From contig NC_035437.2 of NCBI RefSeq assembly GCF_002127325.2, positions 162,787,408 through 162,851,407 of the forward strand: a stretch of DNA of 64,000 bases. Reading direction: 5' to 3'. Shown piece after piece: positions 590 to 62,368 of this stretch; position 1 is the stretch's first letter; the number at the start of each line of letters is the position of its first letter. Source of the DNA: Helianthus annuus. Lineage: Eukaryota; Streptophyta; Magnoliopsida; Asterales; Asteraceae. The position numbers and the translations under genes are program-made. The notes below the pieces were generated by a model that made no database searches, had not been told where the DNA came from, and was given only the letters and a program-made list of their open reading frames with translations.

Positions 590-958
590 GTTAAATGTGA
601 TTTTAGTCCCTGTGGTTTGGGTCATTTTATCAGTTTAGTACAAAGGTTTTATTTTTCATCTGTGGGTCTAAAAAGGTTTCATCTTTGTCATTTTAGTCCA
701 CTGAGTTAACTTCATCCATTTTTTCTGTTAACGAGAAGAGCAATTTCGTCATTGTATGATCGAATGGTCATTCTAGTTAATAGAGTTACATATAAAATGA
801 ATGAATTGCCCTTCTCATGAACAGAAAAAATGGATAAAGTTAACCCATTAGACTAAAATGGGACGATGAAACCTTTTTAGACACACATGCAAAAAATGAA
901 ACCTTTGGACTAAAATTACAAAATGACCCAAACCACAGGGACTAAAATACCATTTAAC
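590..958. mobile_element. Foldback MITE with long inverted arms
   Basis: The two ends are long inverted copies of each other. The left arm runs from GTTAAATG through TTTTAGTCCCTGTGGTTTGG; the right arm carries the reverse complement and closes with CATTTAAC. Complementarity continues with indels for most of each half, so the whole unit could fold back. No ORF lies inside. A clean target duplication was not found. The AGTCCCTGTGGTTTGG ends are of a type common in plant genomes; the superfamily (possibly MULE-like because of the long arms) is inferred. Confidence 0.7.
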
Positions 959-2081: not shown

Positions 2082-2089
2082 CGCTCATG

Positions 2090-2537
2090 CAGGGGCGGAC
2101 CCACATTGAGTGGGTCGGGGTCCACGGACCCCAATCTTTTTTAAAAAATTAGTAGATTCGGTATATTAATTTTTGTAAGGACCCCATAAAAATATTTAGT
2201 TGGACCCCATAGTATCAAAAGCAAAGCTGTTGTGGTGGTTAATCCCTTGTTTGCTAACAAAGAGGTCATGGGTTCAAGCCTAACACTAGCCGATTTTTTG
2301 TTAAAGTACACTTTTAAAATGTTAAAATGAATGAAAATTTACTCAATTTATGCCTTTGTGCTTAGACATGTGTTGTTTTGTTATTTATTTATCTTTTTTT
2401 AAAGGTTCCAAGCTCAATAAATCACCCCGACCCGACCCAAACGACGACCGACCCGAAAATTCTATCGTTTGGGTGTAAAAAATCCAAGTATTGAAAAAAC
2501 TGGACCCCATTGGAAAAAAATCCTGGGTCCGCCACTG
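2090..2537. mobile_element. Non-autonomous hAT transposon with perfect 8-bp TSD
   Basis: Starts CAGGGGCGGACCCA and ends TGGGTCCGCCACTG, giving imperfect terminal inverted repeats of about 14 bp. The 8-bp direct repeat CGCTCATG flanks it exactly at 2082-2089 and 2538-2545, which is diagnostic of hAT insertion. The 448-bp body has no transposase. At about 2,225-2,295 it contains a tRNA-like patch with a B-box-like GGGTTCAAGCC, which may be an older SINE fragment carried along. Confidence 0.9.
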
Positions 2538-2545
2538 CGCTCATG

Positions 2546-26768: not shown

Positions 26769-29609
26769 TGTAAGACCCTAGTTACTATTTAACGGTTTTA
26801 CATGTAAATACCAACAATTAGATGTGTAGTTAAGACTACACATACTATAAAAATACGGATTTATTAAAACTTTTACAAATCATAAGTTATTCAACATAAC
26901 ATGATCGGATTCGTCGTTTAAAATTTATGACGAGGCAATGTGCGGAAGCATGTATCTTTATCGTGTTCGGTTCTTCGTTGAGCTTGATCGTCTTCTGGCA
27001 TCCAAAATGTACCTACATTTCATAAACATTAAATGATTTAGTCATATGGGGTTTAAAACGTGTTTAAACGAGTCCAGGAAGCAAAACTGATTAAAATACA
27101 TTTTTGTACAGGGTCTACCGTAAATTACGGTGGTTACCGTCATTTACGGTAGCCCCTGAATGTTGATTTTTCCACCGTAAAGCAGTGGGTGTGTGGTGTA
27201 AAGACTTTAAGGCTACCGTAAGTTACGGTGGTTACCGTAACTTACGGTGGCCTCTGCAGGATTTTCCAAGTTTGTCGTTTTCTAAAACGAAAACCTTCAT
27301 AACTTTTAATCCGTTTGTCCGTTTGACCTACCGTTTATTCCTACGTGTTTGTAATTTGATTCTCCATCATATGGAGTTAAAATCCGACATCCGGCTTAAT
27401 AAATTTTGAGACTTTTATGCCTTCGGCTTATTACCTTTTTACAAAATTTTGACTCGTTTACGCATTTATCAAACAAACATATTTGTTTGATCATTATTTC
27501 ACATGAACCACTTCAATTCAATATTTTCTACCATGTTAGGTTCTAATTGCGGGTTTCTTATATATTTTAACCCGTTTTCGCTCGTATGCTTATTTTGACC
27601 CGTTAAGGGTATGCTTCTATTGGATTACATCATATCCCCATTTTTTATACGAATTCCAAAGACTCAATTTAAACAAGACGCTTATTTCAAAACAACTTTT
27701 TAAAAGTTGTTTGCCCTATTTACCCCTCAAGGGCTTTTTGGTCAATTTTAGCCCTTCATTTATGCAACGAAGGACTTCTACTATTATTTGACCAAAATGT
27801 CGCTTTTAGCTATAATTCTAAGCATGTGTACCTGGCTCGGGTCATAAGATTGACCCGTTTGAATACCTTTCGCTATTAATTTCTAGTTAATAGCCATGTG
27901 AACCATGTGTTAATTCCTGTGATCATAAACTCAACAAGCGATCATCAAATATTATTGATAAATGGTGTTAACAACACCATTTGACTCGTTTAGTCGAAGT
28001 GACTAATTATAATTATGAGATGGTATTTAATTACCATTTCATCCCTTTAACCTATTCTGATTTACTCTTTGAATTCATCTTGCTTAAAAGTCGTTTCTTG
28101 CTTAAAAGTCATTTCTTGCTTTGTTTGACCCATTTTGACTTATGTCAAATGATGTCCTTTCAAATACTTTTTATTTATTCGTTAACCCATGTCCGGATTA
28201 CCATTCTATCGTTTTTGCCCTTTTTACCATAACTTATGGTATCTTGACATTCCTACTTATTCCGGCGTGCATTATAAGTATTTGGTAGTAAGAATAAAAA
28301 GGCGTAAGCTTAACTTACCTCGTATCCGAGCTACGCTTTTCTTTTCCTTCTTGATTCGTTTAACCCGTTTCTTCCCAAGCCTCCACCTTGCTCGTTAAGT
28401 GTCAAACTATCGTCATCATTCAAAGGTGGTTAGATTAGTCATTAATAATCACGACTTTTCCACCTTACGTATTTTCTATGTCGAAACTACCGTTCGACCT
28501 TATTATTTATTAATTCAACTTATCAAAAGTTAACTACTTTTGATCACATGATTTACACAATTAAGTCTAGATTAACTTTATGCTTTGAACCCTTATCGGT
28601 TCATACTTCGCACAATTTGTCATATTATTCAATTACACGTTTCTTTCAAAATTTCAACATATCAGTGTTCATTTAGACATTTTAGCAAACACCTTGTGGG
28701 CATGATTTTCATACTTTCATAAATCAAGTTTCTCAACTAGTTATTTGCCAAGTTTCAACATCATTCACAAGTCTCTATGTCTAGCATGTATAACAACACC
28801 TAGACTTATATCACAACAACAAATTTTCACATATTTATCATCACTTTTCTAGTATTCATCATAGTGACATAAAACCCACTTATCACCTACAAGGTCTTTA
28901 GTTGAATCTCTAGTTCTATGGCACTATTTTACCAATTTCTCATCTAGGGTTTGTTCCTAGATTCATACACGTATCAGTTTTGCTATAATATTCGTCAATT
29001 CATACTAAAATTTCATTCATGCATGATTATCAAGATTTCAAAACTTCACCAAAATACAAATTTGGACATACCTCATGATTCCCATGATTAGGTGATCACT
29101 AATATATGTTCAAATCCGAATTCGGGCTTCAATTAGTCTTTCAATTTGAAGGAATTAGTTGAACTAGGGTTAACACCCCTAGTTCTTTGCTCCTGGTCGC
29201 CCCAAACGCACGCACACACACACTTAGTGTGTGTTGTGATTTTATTTCTTTATTTTTATTAAAACTAGTTTGCCCACTTGGCAACATTAGTCCCTTGTGT
29301 TTTATCTTTCTCAAAAGAAGCTATAACTTGCAATTTATTACATAATCACATATTACTAACTAGGTTAATTATTCCTAGTTAACTTAATGGGTTCAGAAAG
29401 TCATAACCCATTTTATTTTAAGTCCCGTTAACTCGGGCCTTCTATATACTTTATTTCCCTCAAAAGGATTTGTTCAACTTTTATTTAATATTAGGTTTAT
29501 TTATTTAAATCCTAATATTTACCGGGTTAATTTTTACAACTAACGGTACTTTACCTGTCTTTTAGTATTAACGGGGTTTTATTACCAAACCCGTTTTCGG
29601 GGTGTTACA
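26769..29609 (-). repeat. Element C 3' LTR (left)
   Basis: 2,841 bp, nearly identical to 54270-57115. It differs by scattered substitutions, lacks a segment of about 25 bp near 27,610 that the right copy has, and carries a short duplication (CTTAAAAGTC twice near 28,085-28,105). It contains the twin 17-bp-arm hairpins at 27115-27152 and 27213-27250. Short ORFs inside are not considered genes. Confidence 0.92.
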
Positions 29610-31448: not shown

Positions 31449-33821
31449 TGTAACGCCCTGTGTTTTTGTACTTTCTATTTATAGCTTGTCTTACTCGTGT
31501 TTCTAATTTTGGAAGCTTTGTATCATTGTACTCGTTCCTTCTAGTACTCGTTGTAAACTCGAGATTTTGATCATGAAGGAAAACTTGCATTTCCTTGTTA
31601 CATACTATACATACACCATAATACGATTAATCATGAGATCATTTGATACTTCTTTGTGATACTTACAAACATATGTTGAACTTGTAAATATGTGACATAT
31701 ACTTGTCACTTACAAACATGTTACATTACACTTTTTACCTAGTTAAATCATGTTTTATTTCATATTTCACCTTGTTACAAGTTAGGGGAAACATTGTTGC
31801 ATGTTATTACACAACTTAACTAACAAAATTACTCATTATAATGTTTTAAAAAAATAAAAAAATAAAGAAATATGGCAGCCCCAATTCAGCAAAATTCAGC
31901 ACCATATAGTTGGGTTTTGTGGGCTAGTTTCAAGGTGTAACCCCTTCTAAACACTTCCAAAGCCCAACCCATTGAAACCCTAATCTTCCCCCTATAAATA
32001 CCACTTATAACCAGCCTCTCTACCACTTTTGCAACACTAAAAACTCTCAAAACATCCTCCAAACCATAGCTGAAAGCAAAGGTTCGAGCAGATTGACACC
32101 CCTTCACGAAAATGAGCATAACTCACTCATTTCTTAACGAAATCACTTGATTCTTTTTCCTACTTACTTGGATAATCATGGGGTTCGATTCCTAGACTTC
32201 TCCTTGGAGAAATCAGACCTGGAAATGCCCCGAAATCGTCCATAAACTTTCTGTTTGTTTTTATGTTCATCAAAAACTTGTTTAAACCTATGTAACTTGT
32301 GTTCAACATATCTCATACCTATGTTCTAATGCTTACAACTTATCCCATGGTTGGTTAAGCTTAAAAACAAGGTTGAGACATTTAAAATCAGAGGATTAAA
32401 CCTCATAAACTTGGTGTTTTGTTTAGGGTTTCAACCCACAATCATGTCAAACATAGCCTTTGATACATGAGTGATTATGGAACAACTTGGGTTGTCCCAA
32501 ACCTACAATCCTCACGTGATTTGATGATTTCTACTAGTTAGTTTACTTTACATACTTGTAATGACCTTAGTTCATGACCCTCCTTGGTTGTTTTTACATC
32601 AAGTGTAGTGGTGAACATCAAAGGGGTACCTAAATGGAAGTCTTGTCTTCCTACCCCATCCATGACACATACGACTCAACTTGAGGTACCTAAATGAAGA
32701 TGTAATCTTCTACCTCTTACTTGAATACTTGAACATTTGGACTTAATAATATGTGTATATTATACAACCTAAATACTATCTATGTACACTCGAACCTTTG
32801 ATGTTGAAATCATATTCATTTGTTAAAGTAGTAGGATAATCATCTAAGGACCTAAACCTTGCTATGATTCTTATGAGTGTTCAACTCATGAAATCATTAT
32901 AACCCTCGTGGTTACCAGGTGTCATGCAAGTGTATTATGGGAAGATGAGTATTTTGATATAATATTTTATAACGTTTTCATGTCACTTAAATTCCGAATC
33001 TTCCGAATTCCCCAAACTCATACGCTTTGTTTCCTTGTGTAGAGAAACAAGGTGCTCCAACTAGCTAATTCAACCACCAACTTGCTCTCGGATTCTCAAG
33101 TCACAACTTGTAAACCGTGAGTATACTCGCATTTCCCCCTTTTTACTTTTACCACTTTTGGGGTGTAACATGTTTACTTATCAAAAACTTACACATGAAC
33201 ATTTTGCTTAAACACATGAACATTCCTATAACATGCTTGTATACGTGATGGCTTGATACTTTAAACTTGGGTGATTCTTATGTGTTGAACTTATCATTAA
33301 CTTCGTACGAGCCTAACCGTGACATATGTAGCGCTATAGGATTAACGACCCGCCCTTTATCATCGGTAATGTCATGAGCATATTGCGTTTCCTTGGTTTG
33401 ATATGTTAGACACATGCCATGTTTAAATGTTTATCTTGAATCACATGCTTGCTATGAGGAATTGTTCAAGACTTATCTTTTGCTATGTACGTATCAAACT
33501 TGTATACTCGCCTTTGCATTTGCATTGAATTATTTTAAACATGTTACAGGTTGATGAGGAAGATGCTAAGAAAAGAAGTAGCGTTGATGCCTAGATACAC
33601 ATATAGACGTTAGGGTTTAATATGTTGTATCAATTTTGTTATGTTATCATGTTATTTTTGTTAAACTTGTTGTATTTGAATTTCTTGTATTGTTGACTAT
33701 TTGAAGTTATGAAATGAAATTGGGATTTTCTAAATATTGTCACAAATAGCGTTATGATGTCTCTAGCAATCTTCACACTTCGTCTCATCCCGATGTTTCC
33801 GCCATTGGTTGGGGTGTGACA
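31449..33821 (+). repeat. Element A 5' LTR
   Basis: 2,373 bp, starts TGTAACGCCC and ends GGGGTGTGACA. A TATA box (CTATAAATA, about 31,992-32,000) follows the GC-richer stretch and is the likely Pol II promoter. It holds 27 bp near 33,477-33,503 that the right LTR lacks. Confidence 0.94.
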
Positions 33822-33823
33822 GA

Positions 33824-33838
33824 TTGGTATCAGAGCCA
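33824..33838 (+). promoter_or_regulatory. Element A primer-binding site (tRNA-iMet)
   Basis: TTGGTATCAGAGCC begins three bases after the LTR end and matches the 3' end of initiator tRNA-Met, the usual primer of plant Ty3/gypsy elements. The sequence after it (AACTATAG) pairs with CTATAGTT at 33882-33889. Confidence 0.93.
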
Positions 33839-34046: not shown

Positions 34047-34286
34047 TTTACCAAAATAGGCGTGAAACCCACAATTTGGTAAACGACTCTCATTCCACCT
34101 TTTATCTATTTTGCGCGAAATTTCACCATTAAGCTAGGAGTGAGATCCACAACTTAATGGTAATTTTCATTTCAACTCTAGTGGACCCTTGTCAAAGTGT
34201 CAAAATTTTATTTTGGCCGACAAGTACCAACCACATTTAGGGTACGAAATCGTCAAGCTAGGGGTGAAACCCGCATCTTGTCGATT
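34047..34286 (+). ncRNA. Element A leader: three hairpins with a shared 19-nt loop
   Basis: Three units in the untranslated leader. Stem TTTACCAAA/TTTGGTAAA (34047-34055, 34075-34083); stem ACCATTAAG/CTTAATGGT (34125-34133, 34153-34161); stem of ten positions with nine pairs (34248-34257, 34277-34286). Each encloses exactly 19 nt: ATAGGCGTGAAACCCACAA, CTAGGAGTGAGATCCACAA and CTAGGGGTGAAACCCGCAT. Stems differ completely while loops are conserved, which favours selection on RNA structure. Element B has three more. Function unknown; packaging, dimerisation, translation or priming are possible. Confidence 0.75.
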
Positions 34287-34805
34287 AAGTCCCATTCCTT
34301 GATTTTTATTCTCGCCAATGTCCCGAATGTTCCAATCATTTAGAGATGTGTAGTAACCGGAAGGGTAAGATACCGTTAATCGCTTCTCGACGAGAGTATC
34401 TTACTTATAGGCCAAAGCACAATATCTCCAAATCGAAAGGACTTTCGACCCACTTTGGAATTTTCGACGTTTCTCTACCCGAAACATTCCTATGTTTTAT
34501 TGAGCCTCTCTTTTATGTATCTCAATTTATATGTGATTTTATACTTGAACGTTCATTCGTTTCGAAATGTCGTTTTAATCATTTCGCACGTTACCGCAAT
34601 CACAAACAATAATAATCCTCGTGAACAAACTAAATTTATACCCCTTTACGCAACTTATGTGTTATACTTGTCGAATGTATGTTGGAACTTATGCTCTATG
34701 TGAATTTTACTTGGTACATGAACATTTACTTGCTTTTACATACACAAACCTTGTTTTCGATTAATGATCAAAGTCTCATCCTTTCCTTCTCTTTCAATCT
34801 TTTAG

Positions 34806-35687
34806 ATGTCGTCTAGCTCCTCCAAGAGACTCAAGTCTAAGAAGGGTTCGACTTCCTCCGCCATGTCTCAAAAAGATTGCATGAAATTTATGGCCAAACA
34901 ATTTACTAAAGTCCTACCCGACATCGTTAGCAAGATTCAAACCGATTCACCGCATGGCTCTGTTGACTCAAAGGCAGACAAACCCAAATCGACCTTCCAA
35001 TTTAAGCACTTCATGGCTTGTAAACCCTTAGAATTTACTGGCAAGAATGGCGCTACCGCCATGATGAACTGGTTTGATGCCATCGAGCTTACCTTCTTGC
35101 AAAGTGGTTGCCCTGACGAACTAAGAACCTTGAATGCAACTGGGGTGTTTCGTGAAAAGGCACTCGAGTGGTGGACGACTGAACGCAACAAAAGGGGAAA
35201 CGAGGTTGCACATGCTATGCCTTGGGACGATCTCAAACAGCTTATGAAAGACCACTTATGTCCTCCTCATGAACTCCAAAAATTGGAGAACGAATTTTGG
35301 AACCTTACTCAGAAGGGGAGCGACATGGATGGCCTGATTACGCGCTTTAAACAACTCAGTGTTCTCTGTCCTGGACAAGTTGAAACCGTACCCAAAACCG
35401 TAGCCAAATTCGTCCGTTGTGTTGCACCTTCCCTGACAAACCACCTTGCCTCTGCCAATCCCCAAACCATTGAAGATGCTTTTCGTATAGCCACCGAACT
35501 TAACAACAACTACGTTCTTCATGGAACCTTTGACAAGGTTTCCACAAAGAGTGCACGCCAAGCTACAATTGACACTTCTGATGAGCCCAAACCCTCCCAG
35601 CCGTCTAAGAAAAACCAAGGCAAGAAGCGGAAGGCTTCGAGCCAAAATTGTGCGGTAATCACTCCGCCAAACCCACAACCCCTATAA
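34806..35687 (+). CDS. gag: Element A gag, N-terminal part
   Basis: Structural capsid protein of the retrotransposon. 293 codons from MSSSSSKRL. A basic N-terminus is followed by the retrotransposon gag domain (about residues 60-235: FTGKNGATAMMNWF, ALEWWTTERNKRG, LCPPHELQKLENEF). The frame ends at a TAA (35685-35687) directly after PNPQPL. The next codons continue in the same frame into the zinc-knuckle region, so the stop interrupts gag rather than separating two genes. Element B has a Gln codon at the matching position, which suggests a C-to-T change. Confidence 0.9.
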   Translation: MSSSSSKRLKSKKGSTSSAMSQKDCMKFMAKQFTKVLPDIVSKIQTDSPHGSVDSKADKPKSTFQFKHFMACKPLEFTGKNGATAMMNWFDAIELTFLQSGCPDELRTLNATGVFREKALEWWTTERNKRGNEVAHAMPWDDLKQLMKDHLCPPHELQKLENEFWNLTQKGSDMDGLITRFKQLSVLCPGQVETVPKTVAKFVRCVAPSLTNHLASANPQTIEDAFRIATELNNNYVLHGTFDKVSTKSARQATIDTSDEPKPSQPSKKNQGKKRKASSQNCAVITPPNPQPL

Positions 35688-35690
35688 ACC

Positions 35691-38600
35691 GTGCCTGCTT
35701 TTACCAACAATGAAACTCCACGCAAGGTTTACACTGGAACGCATCCGAAGTATGGCAAATGCCAGTATCATCACCCTCTAAACGCTCATTGCCGAAAGTG
35801 CGACAAGTGTGGCCGAAGTGGGCATACTTCTCCATACTGTCGCGTCCCACCACAGGCTTACCAAAACCAAGCCCTTCTAGCTCCCAATCAAGTCGCCCCT
35901 GTGCGAGCATGCTACACGTGTGGTGATACTAACCATATGGTCAACGTGTGCCCTCAACGTTACCAGCCACAACAACCTCGACAGCAGCAACCGCAGCTTC
36001 AACAACAACAGCAACAGGTTCAAGAACCCGCTAGAGGTCGAGCTTTCCTCCTCACCACTGCTCAGGCTCAAAACGCGAACGACGTCATTACTGGTACGTT
36101 TCTCGTTAACCATGTCTATGCTTCATGCTTATTTGATACTGGTGCCGATAAAAGTTTTGTGTCGTTAGAATTCGAGTCTTTGCTCAAGTGTAAACGCTCT
36201 AAGTTGCCAAAATCTTTCGCTGTCGAAGTCGCTAATGGTAAAACCGTCGTTGTCAATTCTGTTCTCTCCAATTGCTCGTTGATTCTAAACGATCATACCT
36301 TCTCAATCAATCTCATACCCATGCAAATGGGTAGTTTCGATGTCATAGTAGGTATGGACTGGCTTAGGCGAGTTCGTGCTGAAGTTGTCTGTTCTGAGAA
36401 ATTTATTCGCTTACCTCTTCCAAATGGTGATTCTCTACATGTGTATGGCGAGAAACCTTCTCAAGGTCTCAAGCTTATGTCGTGTATCCAAGCGAACAAA
36501 TGCTTACGCAATGGTACTTTCGCCTTTCTCGCCCACATCGTGGAAAAGAAGGACAAAGGCCCAAGCATAAGTGACGTTACCGTCGTACGTGACTTTCCGG
36601 ATGTATTTCCTGACGATCTCCCTGGTCCGCCTCCTGCTCGTTCTGTCGATTTTCGCATCGACTTAGTGCCTGGTGCTACGCCTGTCGCTAAGTCCCCCTA
36701 TCGTTTAGCACCCTCTGAGATGCAAGAGCTCTCGAGTCAACTCCAAGAGCTTCTTGACAAAGGCTTTATACGCCCTAGTACTTCTCCTTGGGGCGCTCCC
36801 GTTTTGTTTGTCAAAAAGAAAGATGGATCATTTCGTATGTGTATTGATTATCGTGAGCTCAACAAGCTCACCATCAAAAACCGATACCCTCTTCCTCGCA
36901 TTGATGATCTCTTCGATCAATTGCAAGGCGCAACCTGCTTTTCAAAGATCGATCTTCGTTCTGGGTATCATCAACTTCGAGTACTCGAAGAAGATGTACC
37001 TAAAACCGCCTTTCGTACACGTTATGGTCATTACGAGTTCGAGGTCATGCCCTTTGGTTTGACCAACGCACCCGCTGTTTTCATGGATTTAATGAACCGC
37101 GTGTGCAAAGCATACTTGGACCGTTTTGTGATCGTCTTCATCGACGATATTCTCATCTATTCCAAGACGCAAGAAGAGCATAAGCGACACTTGCACCTTA
37201 TCCTTGAACTCCTTCGTACTGAACGTCTATACGCCAAATTCTCCAAGTGTGAATTTTGGCTAAAAGAGGTTCAATTCCTTGGTCATACCGTCAACAAACT
37301 TGGAATTCACGTTGATCCCGCTAAAATCGAAGCTGTGAAAAATTGGATCGCACCTAAATCTCCGTCTGAAGTTCGCTCGTTTCTTGGTCTCGCTGGTTAC
37401 TATCGTCGTTTCATCTCCAACTTTTCAAAAATCGCTATTCCTTTGACCTCCTTGACTCAAAAAGAGAGACCTTTTGTTTGGGGTCCCGAACAAGAGGAAT
37501 CATTTCAAATGCTCAAGGATATGCTTTGCAATGCTCCTATCCTAACGCTTCCCGATGGTAACGATGATTTCGTCGTGTATTGCGACGCTTCAAACCTTGG
37601 CCTTGGTTGTGTCCTTATGCAACGTGACAAGGTTATCGCTTACGCATCGAGACAACTCAAAATTCATGAGAAAAACTATACTACCCACGACCTTGAACTT
37701 GGTGCAGTTGTTTTTGCATTGAAGATTTGGCGACACTACCTTTATGGTACTAAATGTGTGGTCTTCACCGACCATAAGAGCCTCCAACACATCTTCAACC
37801 AAAAGGAACTGAACATGCGTCAACGCCATTGGGTGGAATTGTTAAACGACTACGACTGCGAAATCAAATACCATCCAGGTAAAGCGAATGTAGTAGCCGA
37901 CGCTCTTAGTCGTAAAACTCATGTCAAAGGTATTCGTTGTTTCCAACTCGTCCACGATCTTCAAAATCGTATACGCAACGCTCAGTATACATCCGTTAAT
38001 GAGGGTAACCTCTACAACGAGATGCAATGTGGTGCTGAAAATAGTCTCGTGTCCAAATCTGATGGTATTTTATACTATCTCGATCGTATCTGGATTCCTA
38101 ACCGTGATGATCTTCGCAAATTCCTGATGAAGGAGGCCCATAACACGAAGTATTCTATTCACCCTGGTGCCGACAAGATGTACCATGATATGCGTACATC
38201 CTATTGGTGGCCTGGAATGAAGAAGGATATAGCCACTTTCGTCTCAAAATGTCTCACATGTTCCAAAGTGAAAGCTGAACATCAACGTCCCTCTGGCTTA
38301 CTCGAACAACCAAAAATTCCTGTTTGGAAGTGGGAGAGCATTGCCATGGATTTTATCACTAAGCTTCCTCGCACTACTGCTGGTCACGACAGCATTTGGG
38401 TAGTCGTTGATCGATTGACCAAGTCAGCTCACTTCCTCCCTATTCGTGAAGATTTCAAAGTCGAGAAATTGGCTAAGGTCTACATGAAGGAGATAATCTG
38501 TCGTCATGGTATTCCCATTGACATCATTTCTGATCGTGATGCTCGTTTTACGTCTCGTCTCTGGCAAACTTTTCAATCTGCTATGGGTACTAAACTCAAC

Positions 38601-39329
38601 CTTAGCACTGCCTTCCATCCTCAGACTGACGGTCAAACCGAGCGTACTATCCAAACCTTAGAGGATATGCTTCGTTCATGCGTAATAGATTTTGGTGGCA
38701 ACTGGGATTCACACTTGCCTTTGGTCGAATTCTCGTACAATAACAGTTATCACGCGAGTATTCAAATGGCACCTTTCGAAGCATTGTATGGTCGCAAGTG
38801 CCGTTCGCCTATTTGTTGGCACGAGATTGGTCAAGCCCAAATCACCGGTCCCGAGCTTATACAAGAGACGACGGACAAGATTTTACAAGTTCGAGACAAC
38901 TTATTGAAAGCCAGGAACCGACAAAAGAGTTACGCTGACAAAGGACGCAAACCTATGGAATTCGAGACAGGTGACTTCGTGCTTCTCAAGGTATCCCCTT
39001 GGAAAGGCGTGGTTCGATTTGGCAAGAAAGGGAAACTCGCACCTCGCTACGTTGGTCCTTTCAAAATTCTCGAGAGGATTGGCAAGGTTGCGTATAGACT
39101 GAACCTGCCTGAAGAACTCAGCAATGTACACCCTGTCTTCCATGTGTCCAACTTAAAGAAATGTTTAGCTGACGAAGGACTCCACGTTCCTCTCGAAGAC
39201 TTGCAAGTCAACGAAACGCTTCACTTTGTAGAAAAAACTGGTCGAAATCATGGACCAAGGAACCAAGCAATTGAGGCGCAGTCGAATTCCTATTGTCAAA
39301 GTTCGATGGGAAGGAAAACGTGGCGCTGA
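35691..39329 (+). CDS. pol: Element A gag C-terminus and pol polyprotein
   Basis: 1,212 codons open in the gag frame; the first codon is GTG, so this is a continuation and not an independent start. Two CCHC zinc knuckles (Cys37/Cys40/His45/Cys50 and Cys74/Cys77/His82/Cys87), protease DTGA at 149-152, reverse transcriptase with FIDD at 483-486, RNase H with Asp632 in YCDAS, then integrase: a zinc-binding region ([14 protein letters not shown]) and the DDE triad Asp887, Asp948 and Glu984 with the usual 35-residue spacing, then the GPF motif (RYVGPFKI). The last codons are out of frame because of an indel in an A-run at about 39,233. The chromodomain-like end (FTWELESEM, to about 39,396) lies in the next frame. 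Confidence 0.95.
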
Positions 39330-39407
39330 ATTTACTTGGGAGCTCGAAAGCGAAATGAAATCGAAATATCCTCATCTTTTCCCTGAGTCTTCCTAAATTT
39401 CGGGACG

Positions 39408-39430
39408 AAATTTCCTAAAGGAGGGGAGAC
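39408..39430 (+). promoter_or_regulatory. Element A polypurine tract
   Basis: CTAAAGGAGGGGAGAC abuts the right LTR start and follows GGGACGAAATTT, the same arrangement as in elements B and C. Confidence 0.85.
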
Positions 39431-41785
39431 TGTAACGCCCTGTGTTTTTGTACTTTCTATTTATAGCTTGTCTTACTCGTGTTTCTAATTTTGGAAGCTT
39501 TGTATCATTGTACTCGTTCCTTCTAGTACTCGTTGTAAACTCGAGATTTTGATCATGAATGAAAACTTGCATTTCCTTGTTACATACTATACATACACCA
39601 TAATACGATTAATCATGAGATCATTTGATACTTCTTTGTGATACTTACAAACATATGTTGAACTTGTAAATATGTGACATATACTTGTCACTTACAAACA
39701 TGTTACATACTAGTACATTACACTTTTTACCTAGTTAAATCATGTTTTATTTCATATTTCACCTTGTTACAAGTTAGGGGAAACATTGTTGCATATTATT
39801 ACACAACTTAACTAACAAAATTACTCATTATAATGTTTTAAAAAAATAAAAAAATAAAGAAATATGGCAGCCCCAATTCAGCAAAATTCAGCCCCATATA
39901 GTTGGGTTTTGTGGGCTAGTTTCAAGGTGTAACCCCTTCTAAACACTTCCAAAGCCCAACCCATTAAAACCCTAATCCTTCCCCCTATAAATACCACTTA
40001 TAACCAGCCTCTCTACCACTTTTGCAACACTAAAAACTCTCAAAACATCCTCCAAACCGTAGCTGAAAGCAAAGGTTCGAGCAGATTGACACCCCTTCAC
40101 GAAAATGAGCATAACTCACTCATTTCTTAACGAAATCACTTGATTCTTTTTCCTATTTACTTGGATAATCATGGGGTTCGATTCCTAGACTTCTCCTTGG
40201 AGAAATCAGACCTGGAAATGCCCCGAAATCGTCCATAAACTTTCTGTTTGTTTTTATGTTCATCAAAAACTTGTTTAAACCTATGTAACTTGTGTTCAAC
40301 ACATCTCATACCTATGTCCTAATGCTTACAACTTATCCCATGGTTGGTTAAGCTTAAAAACAAGGTTGAGACATTTAAAATCAGAGGATTAAACCTCATA
40401 AACTTGGTGTTTTGTTTAGGGTTTCAACCAACAATCATGTCAAACATAGCCTTTGATACATGAGTGATTATGGAACAACTTGGGTTGTCCCAAACCTACA
40501 ATCCTCACGTGATTTGATGATTTCTACTAGTTAGTTTACTTTACATACTTGTAATGACCTTAGTTCATGACCCTCCTTGGTTGTTTTTACATCAAGTGTA
40601 GTGGTGAACATCAAAGGGGTACCTAAATGGAAGTCTTGTCTTCCTACCCCATCCATGACACATACGACTCAACTTGAGGTACCTAAATGAAGATGTAATC
40701 TTCTACCTCTTACTTGAATAATTGAACATTTGGACTTAATAATATGTGTATATTATACAACCTAAATACTATCTATGTACACTCGAACCTTTGATGTTGA
40801 AATCATATTCATTTGTTAAAGTAGTAGGATAATCATCTAAGGACCTAAACCTTGCTATGATTCTTGTGAGTGTTCAACTCATGAAATCATTATAACCCTC
40901 GTGGTTACCAAGTGTCATGCAAGTGTATTATGGGAAGATGAGTATTTTGATATAATATTTTATAACGTTTTCATGTCACTTAAATTCCGAATCTTCCGAA
41001 TTCCCCAAACTCATACGCTTTGTTTCCTTGTGTAGAGAAACAAGGTGCTCCAACTAGCTAATTCAACCACCAACTTGCTCTCGGATTCTCAAGTCACAAC
41101 TTGTAAACCGTGAGTATACTCGCATTTCCCCCTTTTTACTTTTACCACTTTTGGGGTGTAACATGTTTACTTATCAAAAACTTACACATGAACATTTTGC
41201 TTAAACACATGAACATTCCTATAACATGCTTGTATACGTGATGGCTTGATACTTTAAACTTGGGTGATTCTTATGTGTTGAACTTATCATTAACTTCGTG
41301 CGAGCCTAACCGTGACATATGTAGCGCTATAGGATTAACGACCCGCCCTTTATCATCGGTAATGTCATGAGCATATTGCGTTTCCTTGGTTTGATATGTT
41401 AGACACATGCCATGTTTAAATGTTTATCTTGAATCGCATGCTTGCTATGAGGAATTGTTCAAGACTTATACTCGCCTTTGCATTTGCATTGAATTATTTT
41501 AAACATGTTACAGGTTGATGAGGAAGATGCTAAGAAAAGAAGTAGCGTTGATGCCTAGATACACATATAGACGTTAGGGTTTAATATGTTGTATCAATTT
41601 TGTTATGTTATCATGTTATTTTTGTTAAACTTGTTGTATTTGAATTTCTTGTATTGTTGACTATTTGAAGTTATGAAATGAAATTGGGATTTTCTAAATA
41701 TTGTCACAAATAGCGTTATGATGTCTCTAGCAATCTTCACACTTCGTCTCATCCCGATGTTTCCGCCATTGGTTGGGGTGTGACA
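39431..41785 (+). repeat. Element A 3' LTR
   Basis: 2,355 bp, same ends as the 5' LTR. It has an extra 10 bp (TACTAGTACA region, about 39,706-39,715) and lacks the 27 bp found in the left copy near 33,480. Other differences are scattered single substitutions. Confidence 0.94.
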
Positions 41786-41790
41786 AGTCA

Positions 41791-42220
41791 TATTTGCATT
41801 CTCCGGGTTCGAGTGTAGTACACCCCTCCCAATGCATATCTTAATCGTTTTACATATTTGCATTTTCTGGGTTCGAGTGTAAGTACACCCCCTCCCAAAT
41901 GCATATTTTAGTTATTTTATATGTTTGTATTCTCCGGGTTCGAGTGTAAGTACACTCCTCCCAATGCATATCTTAATCGTTTTACATTAATCTTTGTCCC
42001 TTCACTCGGGCTCATTATCCTAATGTAATACGCTTCCGTCACCCGGCTGTGCGTTTACATTTTTATCAAATATTTTACTCATTTGATTCATTTGGGTACT
42101 TTTAATTTGTCCCATTTACCCTGTCCTTACTATATCGGATGTAAATGTGTCCGCTATAAGAAGTTCATGGTATCATATGCCACTACTTACTTGGCCAGAG
42201 TAAGCGATTAACACATGCCA
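41791..42220 (-). repeat. Element C internal piece between A and B, with a 3-unit tandem repeat
   Basis: Remnant of element C lying between the two insertions. A unit of about 70 bp occurs three times (about 41,790-41,985), each with TTTGYATTYTCYGGGTTCGAGTGTA, ACWCC and CCCAAWGCATATYTTA words. No coding content. Confidence 0.7.
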
Positions 42221-42225
42221 CACAT

Positions 42226-43968
42226 TGTAACACCCCGGGTTTTCAAATGTCAAAGTCAAAGTCAAAGTCCAAGTCAACTTTGACTTCTTTGACTATAATT
42301 AGTCTATTTTATGTTTTATTTGTATTATGTGGAGTAAGTATTGTTAATCTGAATAAATCGAAGTAATCGAATGTTTAATCGACGCGAACCGACTTACGAC
42401 TGTGAATAGTAGGAAGTAACAATGCGATAAAGTTAATCAATCAATAATCAAGCTAATCCAATCATCAATCGAACTCGAATCTCGAAATACGCGAACCTTG
42501 GTTGTTATACTACTTGTGTGTGTGCCTTATGTGTTACCTGTGCGTGCTTACTTTATGTTTTGTCAGGTATTCATTCGAATCAATCGAAACTCGAATCAAA
42601 ACTCGAAACTCAAATCGAATGCAATCGAAATCGAATTACGACGAATGGTAGCGTAAGGATAGTGTGAAATATAGATGATTGTATGTTAGATATAGTGGTT
42701 GGGATTAAAAGTAATTTGAATAGGAAACTCTATCGTACTCGTATCGTCTTCAATCGAATCGAAATATCAAAATCGTCGCACCGAACGCTCGAACCAGGCT
42801 GTGGATCGATCAGGCTGTCAGCCGATCGAACAGCACAGCCGATCGGACGGACTGTCCGATCGAGCAGGCTGTCCGATCGGGATGCCTGGCCGATCGGCCA
42901 GCCCTTTCCTCTTTTGGAGCCTATAAATAGGGCTGTCATTGTCATTCTTTCCACTTTTGGAAACTCTCTAACCGACCAGCTCGTGTTCCTCATCTTTTCC
43001 CAGATTTCTTCCGATTCCGGTAAGTTTTCATCCTAAATCTTGTACTTTCCTGATCAATACACACTCCTACACCTTTCTATCTTTCAAATCTTGATTTCTA
43101 ACTGTGAAATCATCAAGATCTAAGCATTCTAGGATGATGTCATCATGGTGTTCTTCAAAAACATCATGTTTTGGCCTCAATCCACCAAGAATAGCTTGGA
43201 TTTAGCCGATTTCCACATAAACAAACTAAGATCTATTACATATTTGAACGCTAACCAATGTGCATATATTACGTGACTAAATGAATGCTTGTTGATTGTG
43301 TTTACACATGGAATGCTGTCTACCTGCCTTAACGACGTAGTACTATAGTTTGGACTCAGCACCCGTTCTCACGGGGGTTGTTAAGGACAATTACTTGCAT
43401 GGATTACGGTGGTAATCATGTATTGCGAACTGTCTCGGACAGTCAACCCGCATTCACTGGTATCGATAGATCCATGTCGATAATTAACATGCTTCGTTTT
43501 CCTCTGTGTACGTGCTGGTTATGCGTAAACTATTTCGAACTCTATATGTTATTATCAAACTTGTATGCTCACCTTTACATTAAATGTATTGACTTTATTT
43601 TAACGTATGTGACAGGTGTTTAAGATGTTTGCTTGCTAGGAAAGCGAGGCTAGAATAAAGCTCTAGAGCCCCCAACAAATAGTTGTCTGTTAGGAACAAG
43701 CAACTAGAGCATAGTTGTCTGTAGATCTTGTCAGGCTGGGTCTTTAGGAGCATTTGAACAATGTTTATTTGTTTTAATTTAAATCTGAGTTGTCGGAACA
43801 GAATACTTGCCTAGTTGTTATCTGTAATAATATATTGTATTATTTGGGATACGGTATGGGACGTATCAATTAACTGAATAGTATTAATAGTTGTTGTGGG
43901 AACATCTGGACAATCTGTTTCGCTCAGTGCCATGCCCCGATGATTCCGCCATCGGTCGGGGTGTGACA
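42226..43968 (+). repeat. Element B 5' LTR (internally deleted)
   Basis: Starts TGTAACACCCCGG and ends GGGGTGTGACA. TATA box CTATAAATAG at 42921-42930, preceded at about 42,795-42,905 by an array of GCTGTCCGATCG-type words. At about 43,238 the sequence jumps from TCTATTACA to TATTTGAACG, whereas the right LTR has some 2 kb between these words, so the left copy has lost internal sequence. Confidence 0.9.
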
Positions 43969-43970
43969 GA

Positions 43971-43984
43971 TTGGTATCAGAGCC
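43971..43984 (+). promoter_or_regulatory. Element B primer-binding site (tRNA-iMet)
   Basis: TTGGTATCAGAGCC two bases after the LTR. AACTATAG (43987-43994) just downstream pairs with CTATAGTT (44046-44053), as in element A. Confidence 0.93.
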
Positions 43985-44130
43985 ATAACTATAGGGAATT
44001 AGGCTAGACACGACCTAGTCCGGGTCGCTGTCTTAGAGACCTAGACTATAGTTAGGAACCAATAGACCAAGCTTATGTGCTATATTCTAATATTTTTCAC
44101 TATTACTGCACTCGAATTTTCAAATAGAAT

Positions 44131-44368
44131 CAAGCGATTCAGTCGGGATTAGGTGTGAAAGCCGCAAACTCTCGACTAAATTGCTTGGTTAATACTAATC
44201 TTATCAATTTATCGACGATTTCCTCATTATTTTCGATAACAAACGAGGAGAATTATACCAAATCAGGAGTGAAATCCATATTTTGATGAATAATCTTCTC
44301 ATTTTTTACTAAAACAAGGAAGAAATTGCTAAGCCAGGGGTGACACCCAAACCTTGGCAACTTATTCC
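44131..44368 (+). ncRNA. Element B leader: three hairpins with the shared 19-nt loop
   Basis: Unit 1: CAAGCGATTCAGTCG (44131-44145) pairs with CGACTAAATTGCTTG (44173-44187), 13 Watson-Crick pairs, one G-U and one mismatch. Unit 2: 44245-44262 with 44282-44300, about 15 pairs with a bulge and an internal loop. Unit 3: GGAAGAAATTGCTAAG (44318-44333) with CTTGGCAACTTATTCC (44353-44368), 14 of 16. The loop segments TTAGGTGTGAAAGCCGCAA, TCAGGAGTGAAATCCATAT and CCAGGGGTGACACCCAAAC align without gaps to those of element A. The stem sequences are unrelated to A. Confidence 0.75.
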
Positions 44369-45010: not shown

Positions 45011-45111
45011 TGCGTGTTTCGACGTGTTCCTGAGCTTTAGTTAGTAGTAGACGTGTGAGGTGAGATTCAATCATGTTGTGTTGAGTCCTTTGACGATGTC
45101 TGTTGCAAACA

Positions 45112-46869
45112 ATGTCATCTGGATCCCGACACCATCTTACTCGCCAAGAAAAGAGAGTCAGACGTCTCGCTGCTATCATTGCCAATAGTGTGGCAAAAGC
45201 TGTAAGCGATGTATATGAGAACGTCAGCAAGTCGTCCGAGGAGTCGCGAATTGAAGCTCCTAAGGATGCCAACAAGACTGCTTTCAGCTTCAAACAGTTT
45301 AAAGCATGCGGACCCAAAGAATTCACCGGAGAAGATGGCCCTACCGCCATGTTTCAATGGTTTGATTCGGTTGAAGTCACTCTGCGCCAAAGCGGCTGTC
45401 CTGAGAATCTCCGCACCCTCAATGCTACAGGCGTCTTCCAGTCCCGAACTCTAGACTGGTGGACGGCCGAACGAAACAAGCGCGGAAATGATGCAGCTTA
45501 TGAGCTGACTTGGGAGGAGTTGAAGGCCATCATGATGGACGAATTCTGCCCTCCCCATGAACGCCAAAAGCTGGAGGACGAGTTTTGGAACATCAAGTAG
45601 AAGGACGGAGACAACGCTGCGTTAACTGCTCACTTCAAGCAGCTTAGCATCATCTGTCCCGATCAAGTCAAGACGCCGGACATGGCTATCAAGAAGTATA
45701 TTCGAGCTATACCCGATTGTGTTGCCGATTTTGTTCATGCTGCCAAGACATCATCGATTGAAGAGACCTACCTACTTGCCGCTGAGATCAATGACAAGCG
45801 GGTAAAGTCTGGTTTTTGGGATAAGCATACCAAGTCTCTGCACCAAGCCACCACCGCATCGACCGTCGACACCACCACTGCTCAACCCTCCAAGTCATCA
45901 AGAAGAAAGAAGAAGCACAACAACAACAGCTCCAGCAACAAGAACTATGTTGTGACAACAACTGCTGCCCCTCTGCAAGCCGTACAGGCTCAGCAGCAGT
46001 CTTACCACCGACAAGCTCCAGTGATCAATGCGCCGCCAGCCAAGCGCGCTTACACAGGTCCCCACCCACTCTGCCCGACATGCTCATACCATCACCCGGT
46101 GGGAATCGCCTGTCGTTTTTGTGCCCACTGCAACCTCTACGGGCATTTTCACTGCAAATTGTCGATATGGTCCCCGTCAAGCCCCAGTTCAAGCCGTCGC
46201 TCATCAAGCTCTACTTCCAGCCCCTTAAGGCCAACTTGCAGCTCAAGCACCCGCGGTCAATGCTCGATTCTGCTTTGCATGTGGTGACCCTAACCACTTT
46301 GCAAACATGTGCCCGAACCGGGTTGTGAAACAAGAACCCCAACAGCAGCAGCAGCAACAGCAGCAGCCTCAGCAGCAACAGCAAGCAGCCCGTGCCAGAA
46401 CCTTTAACATCAACGCCCGTCAAGCCCAGGCTGACAACAACGTGGTTAATGGTACATTGTTAATGGTATTTATGCATCATGTTTGTTTGATACTGGAGAC
46501 GATAACTGCTTTGTGTCGTTTGAATTCGAGAAGCTCCTTAGTCGTAAGCGTTCTTATCTCCCCTCGTCATTCGAAGTTGAAGTTGCTACTGGAAGAACTA
46601 TCGCCGTTAATTCTGTTCTTCGTGATTGTACCCTCGAGCTCAACAATCACACTTTCCCAATCGACCTTATTCCGATGCAACTCGGAAGTTTTGACATCAT
46701 AGTAGGCATGGACTTTCTTCGCGAAAACCATGTTGAAGTTGTGTGTTTTGATAAGATGATTCGATTCTCGCTCACGAATGGTGATCTTTTATGTGTGTAC
46801 GGTGAAACAGCTTCGAAAGATCTCAAGCTCATGTCGTGTATCCAAGCTAGCAAGTATCTCCGCAAGTAA
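45112..46869 (+). pseudogene. gag: Element B gag and protease, disrupted
   Basis: The best start is ATG at 45112 (MSSGSRHH), parallel to element A. The gag domain (FTGEDGPTAMFQWF, LDWWTAERNKRG, CPPHERQKLEDEF) runs into TAG at 45598-45600 where element A has a Gln codon, then continues in frame. A frameshift follows in the first zinc knuckle at about 46,148. The second knuckle (CFACGDPNHFANMC) and a poly-Gln tract lie in other frames. A further frameshift at about 46,460 precedes the protease (FDTGDDN), which runs to TAA at 46867-46869. It cannot make a complete Gag. Confidence 0.9.
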
Positions 46870-49839: not shown

Positions 49840-52800
49840 TGTAACACCTCGTGTTTTCAAATGTCAAGGTCAAAGTCAAAGTCCAAGTCAACTTTGACTT
49901 CTTTGACTATAATTAGTCTATTTTATGTTTTATTTGTATAATGTGGAGTAAGTGTTGTTAATCTGAATAAATCGAAGTAATCGAATGTTTAACCGACGCG
50001 AACCGACTTACGAGTGTGAATAGTAGGAAGTAACAGTGCGATAAAGTTAATCAATCAATAATCAAGCTAATCCAATCACCAATCGAACTCGAATCTCGAA
50101 ATACGCGAACCTTGGTTGTTATACTACTTGTGTCTGTGCCTTATGTGTTACCTGTGCGTGCTTACTTTATGTTTTGTGTGGTATTCAATCGAATCAATCG
50201 AAACTCGAATCAAAACTCGAAACTTAAATCGAATGCAATCGAAATCGAATTAAGACGAATGGTAACGTTAGGATAGTGTGACATATAGATGATTGTATGT
50301 TAGATATAGTGGTTGGGATTAAAAGTAATTTGAATAGGAAACTCTATCATACTCGTATCGTCTTCAATCGAAATCGAAATATCAAAAATCGTCGCACCGA
50401 ACGCTCGAACCAGGCTGTGGATCGATCAGGCTGTCAGCCGATCGAACAGCCCAGCCGATCGGACGGACTGTCCGATCGAGCAAGCTGTCCGATCGGGATG
50501 CCTGGCCGATCGGCCAGCCCTTTCCTCTTTTGGAGCCTATAAATAGGGCTGTCATTGTCATTCTTTCCACTTTTGGAAACTCTCTGACCGACCAGCTCGT
50601 GCTCCTCATCTTTTCTCAGATTTCTTCCGATTCCGGTAAGTTTTCATCCTAAATCTTGTACTTTCCTGATCAATACACACTCCTACACCTTTCTATCTTT
50701 CAAATCTTGATTTCTAACCATGAAATCATCAAGATCTAAGCATTCTAGGATGATGTCATCATGGTGTTCTTCAAGAACATCATGTTTTGGCCTCAATCCA
50801 CCCAGAATAGCTTCTATCTAGCCGATTTCCACATAAACAAACTAAGATCTATTACAGATCTGAACATTTACATGGTGTGAAGGATTGAAAGAAGGATTTC
50901 CAACTTTCTTTCAACTCTTTTATACTCAATGCCTTCAAACCGATAGAAACAGAGCTTGAGCCAACTCACTAATCAATCCAATGGTTGTGTGGTTCAAGAT
51001 TCGGGTTCTATCTACGAGGTTCACCGACTTCGGGTTAAACGTTAAACCGCCGTTCCGAACCGTTCACCGGGCGGACTTGGGTGATTCTTGTCCGAGCAGG
51101 AGAAACAGGTAAGAACGAAGGTTCCCTGGTTCAGCTCGTTGTCAAACTACCTCAATATAACGTCAAATAACCAGAACAACCAAGTGTTAGACGAACAGGC
51201 CGACCAGGTCAGGATGCTGGCCGAAGGGTCAGGCTGTCCGAACGGACAACCCAACCGATCGAACATGTCTGTCGATCGACCAGGCCAGCCGATCGGCTAG
51301 CATATGGCCCCACACTTTGACAATTTCATGAAGTATAGTATTGAATAAGGTGATGTCCGATCGAACGAGCTGTTTGATAACATTACTCATCGGATCATGA
51401 GATACTATGCTTCAACACTTAATCGATTTACAACTCGTAGTAGTACGGAGTGCCACCCGATCGAACATGTTGTCCGATCGATCAGGTGACATCCAGCTGA
51501 GGACTCACTATCGAAATGTCTAACTGATCGGATAAACCGGCTGATCGAACAGACTGTTCGATCGATCGACCTGAAAGGTAAGAACACTTCAGTGTTCTCA
51601 AATACTACAACGAAAACTTCAAAAGGTCAAACCATCATACACAAACACATCTTACTCAAAGGAAGAAACAATCCACTCGAACAGTCCAGCCGATCGAGCC
51701 TACCGGCCGATCGAATGGACTGTCCGAACGGACTGTCCGAACGGACTGTCTAGCCGAACGAACAACCCGTTCGATCGAACCTACTGTTCGATCGACCAGG
51801 CTGTTCGACCCATCATCACTTGTTAATCTGTAACACGTAGAATGTTACTCATCGTTATGCTATCGAACTATTCAGGCTAACCCTACTCTCAAGCGCTCCC
51901 TTCAATCCATCAATCAATCGCTGTGAGTATACTCGATCCCTTTTTGCTTTTAGCACTTTTGGGTGTTACATACGTTACCAGGGCCGTCTTCGAAAATCCC
52001 AAAAAAAATTTGGGCCCTGTTCGAGATAAAAAATTTGGGCCCTATTCGCAAATCTTCATATAACATAAACTCATCAATTATTCAATTATATAACCAAAAA
52101 TTCATAATACTACGATAATTGTTATGAAATTGATAAAACAAATTCACAAAAATAGTATAGCAAAAATTATCAAAGTATCGAACTTACTTGCTAAGCAAAC
52201 AGTGTGGTTCTCCTAGTCTTTTTTGAAGCAAAGCTCTCGATCAACTCATTCAATCACATTTATCTAAATAAAGTTAAACAATAGTAAACTACTAATTACT
52301 AAATTAGAAATCATTCAATCATTCATTATTCTTATTCATAACACTATTTAGTAAATAGACAAATAATTCAATATTTCAATCATTCATTATTATGAATGCT
52401 TTTCGACAAACAAAAGCGAATGTAACATCAATCAACAAACAAAACTCAAAAGACAACAAACAAAATAACAAATACGAAATACCTCTCGGCCTCTCCTGAA
52501 ATCTGAATCGCGAATCTGATTGCGGATGTCCGGTGGCCACAGGTTCAGTGTTTGACTTTGATGACTGAGGATTTGAACAGAATTCCTGCGGGCTGCGGCG
52601 TTTGAGAATTTGATCAGCAGATCAGAAATCCTGCGGATGTCCGGTTGCTACAAACAAAACTCAAGACAAAAGAAAACAAGCAATAGGGTTTTTGACAAAG
52701 TTTGGGCTGTAAAACAATTTGGGCTAATATATAAAGAAAACATAAAAAATTTTGGGCCCTTTCATTGTTTGGGCCCTGTTCTCAGGCTCACCCTGAACAT

Positions 52801-53589
52801 GCTTATAACCGGGCCTGTACGTTACTGATATCAAAACACAATCGATCACACTACTCAAACTATTTGAACGCTAACCAATGTGCATGTATTACGTGACTAA
52901 ATGAATGCTTGTTGATTGTGTTTACACGTGGAATGATGTCTACCCGCCTTAACGACGTAGTACTATAGTTTGGACTCAGCACCCGTTCTCACGGGGGTTG
53001 TTAAGGACAATTACTTGCATGGATTACGGTGGTAATCATGTATTGCGAACTGTCTCGGACAGTCAACCCGTAGTCACTGGTATCGATAGATCCATGTCGA
53101 TAATTAACATGCTTCGTTTTCCTCTGTGTACGTGCTGGTTATGCGTAAACTATTTCGAACTCTATATGCTATTATCAAACTTGTATGCTCACCTTTACAT
53201 TATATGTATTGACTTTATTTTAACGTATGTGACAGGTGTTTAAGATGTTTGCTTGCTAGGAAAGCGAGGCTAGAATAAAGCTCTAGAGCCCCCCAACAAA
53301 TAGTTGTCTGTCAGGAACAAGCAACTAGAGCATAGTTGTCTGTAGATCTTGTCAGGCTGGGTCTTTAGGAGCATTTGAACAATGTTTATTTGTTTTAATT
53401 TAAATCTGAGTTGTCGGAACAGAATACTTGCCTAGTTGTTATCTGTAATAATATATTGTATTATTTGGGATACGGTATGGGACGTATCATTTAACTGAAT
53501 AGTATTAATAGTTGTTGTGGGAACATCTGGACAATCTGTTTCGCTCAGTGCCATGCCCCGATGATTCCGCCATCGGTTGGGGTGTGACA
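49840..53589 (+). repeat. Element B 3' LTR (longer copy, with a hAT insertion)
   Basis: Starts TGTAACACCTCG after the purine tract AAGGGGAGGC. The first kilobase and the last 0.73 kb match the left LTR closely, with TATA CTATAAATAG at 50537-50546. The middle (about 50,858-52,857) has no counterpart in the left LTR. It contains more CCGATCG-rich sequence (51,179-51,815) and the hAT element at 51979-52817. Confidence 0.9.
51979..52817. mobile_element. Non-autonomous hAT element inside the element B 3' LTR
   Basis: Ends CAGGGCCGTC and, in reverse complement, CAGGCCCGGT. The 8-bp repeat TACGTTAC flanks it exactly at 51971-51978 and 52818-52825. TTTGGGCCCT words occur near both ends. 839 bp, AT-rich interior, no transposase. 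It is the youngest layer of this part of the nest. Confidence 0.9.
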
Positions 53590-54252: not shown

Positions 54253-54268
54253 GGGCTCTGATACCAAC
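54253..54268 (-). promoter_or_regulatory. Element C primer-binding site (tRNA-iMet), minus strand
   Basis: GGGCTCTGATACCAA on plus reads TTGGTATCAGAGCCC on minus, one base from the LTR edge at 54270. This fixes the orientation of element C. Confidence 0.9.
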
Positions 54269-60700: not shown

Positions 60701-60714
60701 GTTGGTATCAGAGC
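60701..60714 (+). promoter_or_regulatory. Element D primer-binding site (tRNA-iMet)
   Basis: TTGGTATCAGAGCC just after the LTR end. A stem formed by CTGAG and ATTAAACAC (60720-60736) with GTGTTTAAT and CTCAG (60746-60759) follows at once. Confidence 0.92.
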
Positions 60715-60907
60715 CAACGCTGAGTGAATTAAACACTAGTCTTTTGTGTTTAATCTCAGTTACACAATTGCACAATCCTCGATTTTCGAGTCTAGACAAA
60801 GAACTTAGGAAATGTTCAACATTTCGTTTATTTTATCATTATTTTTATTTTTAGCTTTGTCTTATATATTTTGTTGTGCAACTTGTTTAAATTTTGACAG
60901 GTTCATC

Positions 60908-62212: not shown

Positions 62213-62368
62213 GTCCCTGCGTGGACACCTATTCCTGTATTCTACCCCTGCGTGGGTATATTTCCTTTATTCTACCCCTGCGTGGGTATGTTATTCTGTT
62301 AACCCCTGCGTGGGTTTGTTTTGTTTTAATTATTGTTGTCGTTATTTGTTTAGCCCCTGCGCGGGCAT
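62213..62368 (+). ncRNA. Five small hairpins with loop CTGCGY in element D
   Basis: TGTCC/GGACA (62212-62227), TACCC/GGGTA twice (62243-62258 and 62273-62288), AACCC/GGGTT (62301-62316) and GCCC/GGGC (62353-62367), each around CTGCGT or CTGCGC. The outer pairs change together from copy to copy. They lie between the extra ORF and gag. Confidence 0.65.

Follow-up and report, generated by a model that had tools for sequence, protein, structure and literature searches.

Why do two diverged retrotransposons in the sunflower genome each carry, between primer-binding site and gag, three hairpins with one common apex on differing stems? This question is raised by a stretch of 64,000 nucleotides (nt) of Helianthus annuus (contig NC_035437.2, positions 162,787,408 to 162,851,407 of the forward strand), which we call the window; the complete host genome comprises 3.01 Gb. 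The first-pass annotation of this DNA had placed six such hairpins, three in each of two elements designated A and B here. Inspection of both leaders located all six as claimed, and the six-unit observation proved to be real and not a product of chance. The two elements are Ty3/Gypsy retrotransposons, probably of the Tekay lineage. As argued below, their leader array is almost certainly a selected RNA structure; the chance is about even that it is a recognition site for the element's own Gag, which would mark the RNA for packaging.

All six units are on the plus strand. In element A, they are found between the primer-binding site TTGGTATCAGAGC (33824..33836) and the gag reading frame (34806..35687; Ty3_capsid, Retrotrans_gag). 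These are the hairpins A1 (34047..34083; apex ATA-GGC-GUGAAA-CCC-ACAA), A2 (34125..34161; CTA-GGA-GUGAGA-UCC-ACAA), and A3 (34248..34286; CTA-GGG-GUGAAA-CCC-GCAT). In element B, the same primer-binding sequence (43971..43983) and the first piece of an interrupted gag (45103..45600) enclose the long hairpin B1 (44131..44187; TTA-GGU-GUGAAA-GCC-GCAAAC) as well as B2 (44245..44300; TCA-GGA-GUGAAA-UCC-ATAT) and B3 (44318..44368; CCA-GGG-GUGACA-CCC-AAAC). This location between primer site and gag is the leader position of packaging signals. In register, the six units follow a single layout: one arm of the stem, three nt with a final A, GGN, GUGANA, NCC, four nt (six in B1), and the other arm. The N-N letters are able to pair in five of the six units, the exception being A1 (C.C), just as had been noted. 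The claim of a common apical segment in all six units has to be amended in one respect: in B1, closure on the 3' side comes two bases later, giving a 3x6 rather than a 3x4 internal loop.

The common segment itself is confined to these places. On the plus strand of the window there are six copies of its core GGNGTGANANCC, exactly in the six units, and on the minus strand none; in 2000 dinucleotide shuffles of both leaders the mean count was 0.002 and the maximum 1. When at most one mismatch was allowed in AGGNGTGANANCCNCA, the six unit places were again the only matches within the window. The geometry of a unit, regardless of its letters, is not rare (23 matches per strand of the window); consequently, the evidence lies in the letters plus the stem. 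For the stems, the contiguous pairs in the fixed 3/4 register, in which B1 alone scores 0, sum up to 34 as compared to a shuffled mean of 4.2, and none of 100000 shuffles reached 34. If the best of 12 registers was chosen, the sum was 42 versus 14.6, and none of 20000 shuffles reached 42. Thus, by pair sums and by core counts, shuffled leaders do not yield such units. When the window was searched with a covariance model of the units, all six were recovered at E <= 2.1e-8; an antisense reading of unit A1 came next (E = 0.28). Folding each unit singly restored the outer pairing in all six cases with energy z-scores between -1.5 and -5.5; A1 and B2 are weak, being matched by 14 of 200 shuffles in each case.

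The stems had been described as unrelated in sequence, which is overstated: the closing AAG/CUU is found in A2, A3, and B3, and CCAAA in A1 and B2. What holds is that, by Watson-Crick count, the own partner is the best partner in five of the six units. Over the first nine stem positions, the own partners form 9, 9, 8, 7, 6, and 7 Watson-Crick pairs; the 5' arm of B2 pairs better with the 3' arm of A1 than with its own (8 versus 6). If contiguous pairs including G-U are counted in the fixed register, the own partner is not the best one for A3, B1, and B2: the 5' arm of A3 does better with three other units, that of B2 with A1.

Is the array restricted to these two elements? The exact 17-nt motif TAGGNGTGAAANCCNCA occurs 14117 times in the host genome (7018 on the plus and 7099 on the minus strand), the reversed pattern 10 times (6 and 4); division of 14117 by three leads to an estimate of ~4700 arrays per 3 Gb. 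From about 100 first places in the motif listing, all on a single contig, 40 arrays were chosen, the first 20 of them for variety of matched letters. One matching unit per array sufficed for listing, and most other units were not selected by the search. All 40 sampled arrays contain three units, in agreement with the expectation that related copies carry the motif. In 38 of them the units were recognized by a pattern script; in L148 and L149, unit 2 was found by the covariance model only, a check which covered the first 20 of the 40. Most loci with the primer-site sequence are without an array. A sample of 200 kb of the host genome (18 stretches from L087-L106, placed regardless of the motif, two of them flanking the window) shows no more than this: it gave 12 primer-site matches and no core, at an expectation of only about 0.3 arrays.

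The arrays display position-specific forms. Unit 1 reads GGC..CCC, once GGC..UCC, in the A-type (n = 15); in the B-type (n = 27) it is mostly GGU..RCC, with GGA in 5 cases, and its 3' side has 6 nt. Unit 2 is mostly GGA..UCC, and unit 3 is GGG..CCC, with a single GGG..UCC. Correspondingly, the closing N-N letters of unit 1 (n = 42) are U-A in 13, U-G in 9, and A-U in one case, or unpaired (C.C 14, A.C 4, C.U 1); those of unit 2 (n = 40) are A-U in 32 cases plus 4 other pairs, and those of unit 3 (n = 42) are G-C in 41 cases and G-U in one. Of 124 units, 119 to 123 retain each hexaloop letter; one unit per array had to match for listing. The distance between cores varies from 74 to 127 nt for units 1-2 and from 65 to 140 nt for units 2-3; the units therefore behave as separate modules. 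A primer site was located in 20 B-type stretches; from there to the core of unit 1 downstream, the distance is 178-225 nt.

To what extent are the stems themselves conserved? DNA searches with arrays A and B gave 2172 and 3166 first-look candidates, respectively, and 40 of each were scored and listed. The A-family set consists of 20 of these 40 copies (15 distinct) and was compared with the window copy. Its outer stems differ at 3 of 1080 sites and its spacers at 94 of 2580, i.e. the stems are about thirteen times less variable. The inner helix shows 1 difference in 360 sites and the 3' internal loop none in 240; in the 5' internal loop there are 20, all at its first base. Within the hexaloop 23 differences were counted, 21 of them at the fifth letter of GUGANA, which is due mostly to the rare G that A2 of the window has there. 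In the B-family set (20 copies, with the commonest letter as reference) we counted 30 differences in 1080 stem sites, 14 in 360 sites of the inner helix, 4 in 360 of the hexaloop, and 106 in 2500 other sites; a standard pair is retained in 39 of 55 changed pair cells and lost in 16.

In addition, changes in the stems are largely compensated according to a statistical covariation test of three unit alignments. For unit 3 (42 rows, 34 distinct), 84.8% of the cells are paired and the covariation score is 0.212 versus 0.156 in shuffles. For unit 2 (39 of 42 rows, 34 distinct) the values are 78.0% and 0.325 versus 0.207, with 61 double-change cells as compared to 28.9 in shuffles; for the B-type unit 1 (27 rows, 25 distinct) they are 89.8% and 0.223 versus 0.169. 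In each alignment, none of 500 shuffles reached the observed covariation score or percentage of paired cells. This shuffle control ignores kinship, whereas sliding the partners against each other keeps it; slid partners paired in at most 53.8% of the cells, as against 78-90% in register. The alignment of unit 2 left out L148 and L149, missed by the pattern, and L152, which has another register and whose unit 1 was put by hand into the 6-nt register. Unit 3 of L168, L170, and L177 has an extra 5' base and only 3-4 pairs in the register used; these rows were kept. For unit 1 of the A-type, the analysis consisted of a tally of 15 rows (11 distinct), in which one pair is U-A in 5, C-G in 5, and U-G in one row. 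The common stem letters AAG/CUU and CCAAA would be in line with a neutral leftover of a duplicated segment, devoid of function; given the low variability of the A-family stems relative to their spacers and the covariation of stems between arrays, we consider this explanation practically negligible.

Copies of the 17-nt motif in viral contigs (83 stretches, 82 usable) allowed an independent comparison: none of the 82 forms at least 7 of 9 pairs, the best reaching 6, and the N-N pair forms in 27. Lacking stems, these copies serve as a negative control for chance occurrence. The motif scan and the reverse transcriptase (RT) scan of viral contigs gave single motif matches and no RT relative, and the plasmid scan gave 3 records with distant RT matches. 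The scan of prokaryote genomes yielded one contig with a primer site and no unit, L084 from the genome record of Labilibacter sediminis; its positions 1-3565 contain a plant-like Ty3/Gypsy element, which is probably plant contamination. In nine stretches (L084, L086-L090, L098, L103, L104), a covariance search gave no match below E = 0.25. Rfam (4227 families) gave no match at gathering score for the whole window, and none at E <= 1 for leader A, to which this second threshold was applied. A description of such an array was not found by title or abstract among openly licensed PMC papers.

A different array is present in a third element of the window. Its primer site (60702-60714) is followed by an extra reading frame (60812-61888), by five short hairpins (62213..62366, plus strand) with the hexaloop CUGCGU or CUGCGC, and by gag, which starts at 63068. 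The stems GUCC/GGAC, ACCC/GGGU (three times), and GCCC/GGGC comprise 4-5 bp and differ in a compensating manner. In 20 copies (19 distinct; 20 of 40 scored, from 1893 candidates) none of 800 stem cells and none of 600 loop cells varies, as compared to 69 of 3020 spacer cells. Both arrays thus consist of leader hairpins with one hexaloop and differing stems; the CUGCGY array deviates from the GUGANA array by its loop, its shorter stems, its five units, and its location downstream of the extra frame. This frame is proline-rich and lies between primer site and gag. In this respect the third element is similar to sunflower Tekay group 2 of PMC11728184, which likewise has an extra frame on the 5' side; the excerpts of that paper contain none of the words PBS, leader, UTR, and hairpin.

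Several observations weigh against a selected hairpin array read by Gag and have to be set against the support given so far. The relatives, the conservation, and the covariation all come from one genome, so that the claim of a selected structure, repeated three times in each of two diverged elements, is upheld by tests within that genome. The proposed inner pairing of GGN with NCC around the loop is permitted by the letters; however, it is the minimum-energy apex in A2 and A3 only, and the computed folds of the other four units favour other apical pairings. Its third pair is impossible in all 15 A-type copies of unit 1 (14 C.C, 1 C.U), and because its two G-C pairs hardly vary, the mini-helix is not proven by covariation. 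In the B family the contrast is weaker than in A, with 2.8% variation in stems versus 4.2% elsewhere. For units 2 and 3, two of five covariation measures do not rise clearly above shuffles. One is the number of pairs with double change, reached by 46, 137, and 40 of 500 shuffles (units 3, 2, and 1), the other the number of further pair types, reached by 459, 273, and 17; one slide of unit 3 likewise gives five pairs with double change. Purines do not predominate in the CUGCGY loop of the third element. Finally, G-U cells exceed A-C cells only modestly in the outer stems (89 to 58) and number 11 to 4 in the inner helix, which makes for a weak strand test.

This last point, together with a short repeated motif downstream of the promoter in the long terminal repeat (LTR), is what an element acting at the DNA level might show, for example repeated transcription-factor sites with palindromic flanks. 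Yet a protein site in DNA does not need arms which pair and covary over 9-12 positions, and the chance copies of the motif come without arms; we therefore judge a DNA-level element to be very improbable. A role in translation deserves more attention, as the two leaders contain as many as 21 and 23 upstream AUGs. The array could help ribosomes to pass these on their way to gag by means of shunting, internal entry, or factor binding, and stable hairpins in a long leader would suit such a task. For a host factor shared by all elements, a different loop in another Ty3/Gypsy group of the same genome would be unexpected, and leader A lacks a counterpart in Rfam; a translation element is accordingly an unlikely explanation, albeit the least unlikely of those we weigh against recognition by Gag.

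How could Gag make use of the array? A repeated and strongly kept apex on replaceable stems, at the place of retroviral packaging signals (psi), suggests a docking array for one protein. Three hairpins in fixed order occupy the leader of this lineage between primer-binding site and gag, and each presents one apical module, composed of a 3x4 or 3x6 internal loop, a putative GGN:NCC mini-helix, and a GUGANA hexaloop; the stem sequence is largely free, provided that pairing is kept. In the mechanism we propose, the module would serve a single RNA-binding protein as a docking site present three times. This protein would most likely be the Gag encoded by the element itself; it may bind the three apices together and thus earmark genomic RNA of full length for incorporation into virus-like particles. 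In support of this reading, the array persists between A and B, whose gag pieces share 51% identity over 140 residues and whose RT pieces share 83%.

A repeated conserved apex in three copies at variable spacing might also attract a host RNA-binding protein that exports, stabilises, or localises the unspliced RNA. However, the loop goes with the element lineage (GUGANA versus CUGCGY), and an element-encoded reader such as Gag fits this better than a shared host factor; moreover, we know of no host partner for the apex. Taken together, a host-protein site appears improbable. Dimerisation of genomic RNAs by loop-loop pairing, which the first-pass annotation had named among the conceivable functions, is compatible with the leader position and has a precedent in the kissing loops of Ty1 (excerpts of PMC5454406). 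It is nevertheless highly unlikely here: GUGANA, including GUGAAA, is not self-complementary, and of 40 stretches, many of which end short of the primer site, only 7 contain the complement UUUCAC. Kissing loops were rejected on these grounds of loop complementarity.

If Gag is the reader, the hexaloops could be lineage barcodes in the arrays of plant Tekay-type elements, GUGANA and CUGCGY each being read by the matching Gag; we put this forward tentatively, as a conjecture with less than an even chance of being right. Such barcodes would let each lineage pack its own RNA amid thousands of related elements. To our knowledge, the discrimination of own RNA by plant LTR retrotransposons has been little mapped. 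With an RNA module that has statistical support, exists in thousands of copies in this one genome, and offers natural stem variants as well as forms specific to each position, recognition by Gag becomes testable in a large plant lineage, and the CUGCGY array of the same genome is a built-in specificity control.

The assignment of the elements rests on the following features. Element A has paired LTRs, a primer site, gag, and RT plus RNase H upstream of integrase; a protein search with its Gag matched named Helianthus proteins, mostly from H. annuus. Element B, though interrupted, retains a gag piece, an RT piece identified by alignment, and a C-terminal piece of integrase. Of the Pfam families matched by the integrase ends, none is a chromodomain family; the Tekay name was taken from the first-pass annotation and excerpts of PMC11728184. 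On the plus strand, the 5' LTR of A spans 31449..33802 (repeat partner 39431-41766) and that of B 42226..43968 (partner within 49840-53589), the true ends being not fixed in either case. The 3' LTR of B is about 2 kb longer than its 5' LTR; something therefore seems to be inserted there, the extra part being 50684-52861. A further LTR-like repeat pair (26769-29297 and 54270-56803, 27.5 kb apart) is accompanied by a minus-strand primer site (54255-54267), and A and B appear to lie inside an element bounded by this pair. Directly abutting the gag ATG of element A is a pyrimidine-rich run with terminal AG (34780-34805), which by eye resembles a 3' splice site; similar stretches precede gag in the host-genome stretches L089 and L098. 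Within gag of L103 and L104, inspection by eye also suggested a possible GT..AG intron. At 19984-20307, the window also contains a near-perfect inverted repeat with 159-nt arms, which are 96% complementary and separated by 6 nt.

Which known systems come closest to the sunflower arrays? The coronavirus SL5 region likewise repeats one hexaloop on several 5'-proximal hairpins, but is unrelated in sequence and genome type. With respect to the loop, GNRA-like folds with flipped-out bases are known, e.g. from phage boxB; by analogy, GUGANA might fold like these, leaving position 5 free. The packaging signal of mouse mammary tumour virus (MMTV), whose Gag binds looped purines, has a similar leader place and stem-loops exposing purines (excerpts of PMC8096270); it differs from the plant Ty3/Gypsy arrays with their three repeated hairpins and single apical module, to which Gag binding is attributed here by inference. 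Ty1 is an LTR retrotransposon with structured 5' RNA as well: its 5' domain serves translation, packaging, and priming, and its hairpins matter for transposition, according to excerpts of PMC5454406. That domain contains a pseudoknot and mutually complementary loops, in contrast to the sunflower loops, which are alike and not self-complementary. Of all these systems, the purine loop of MMTV and the 5' domain of Ty1 are the nearest counterparts in function.

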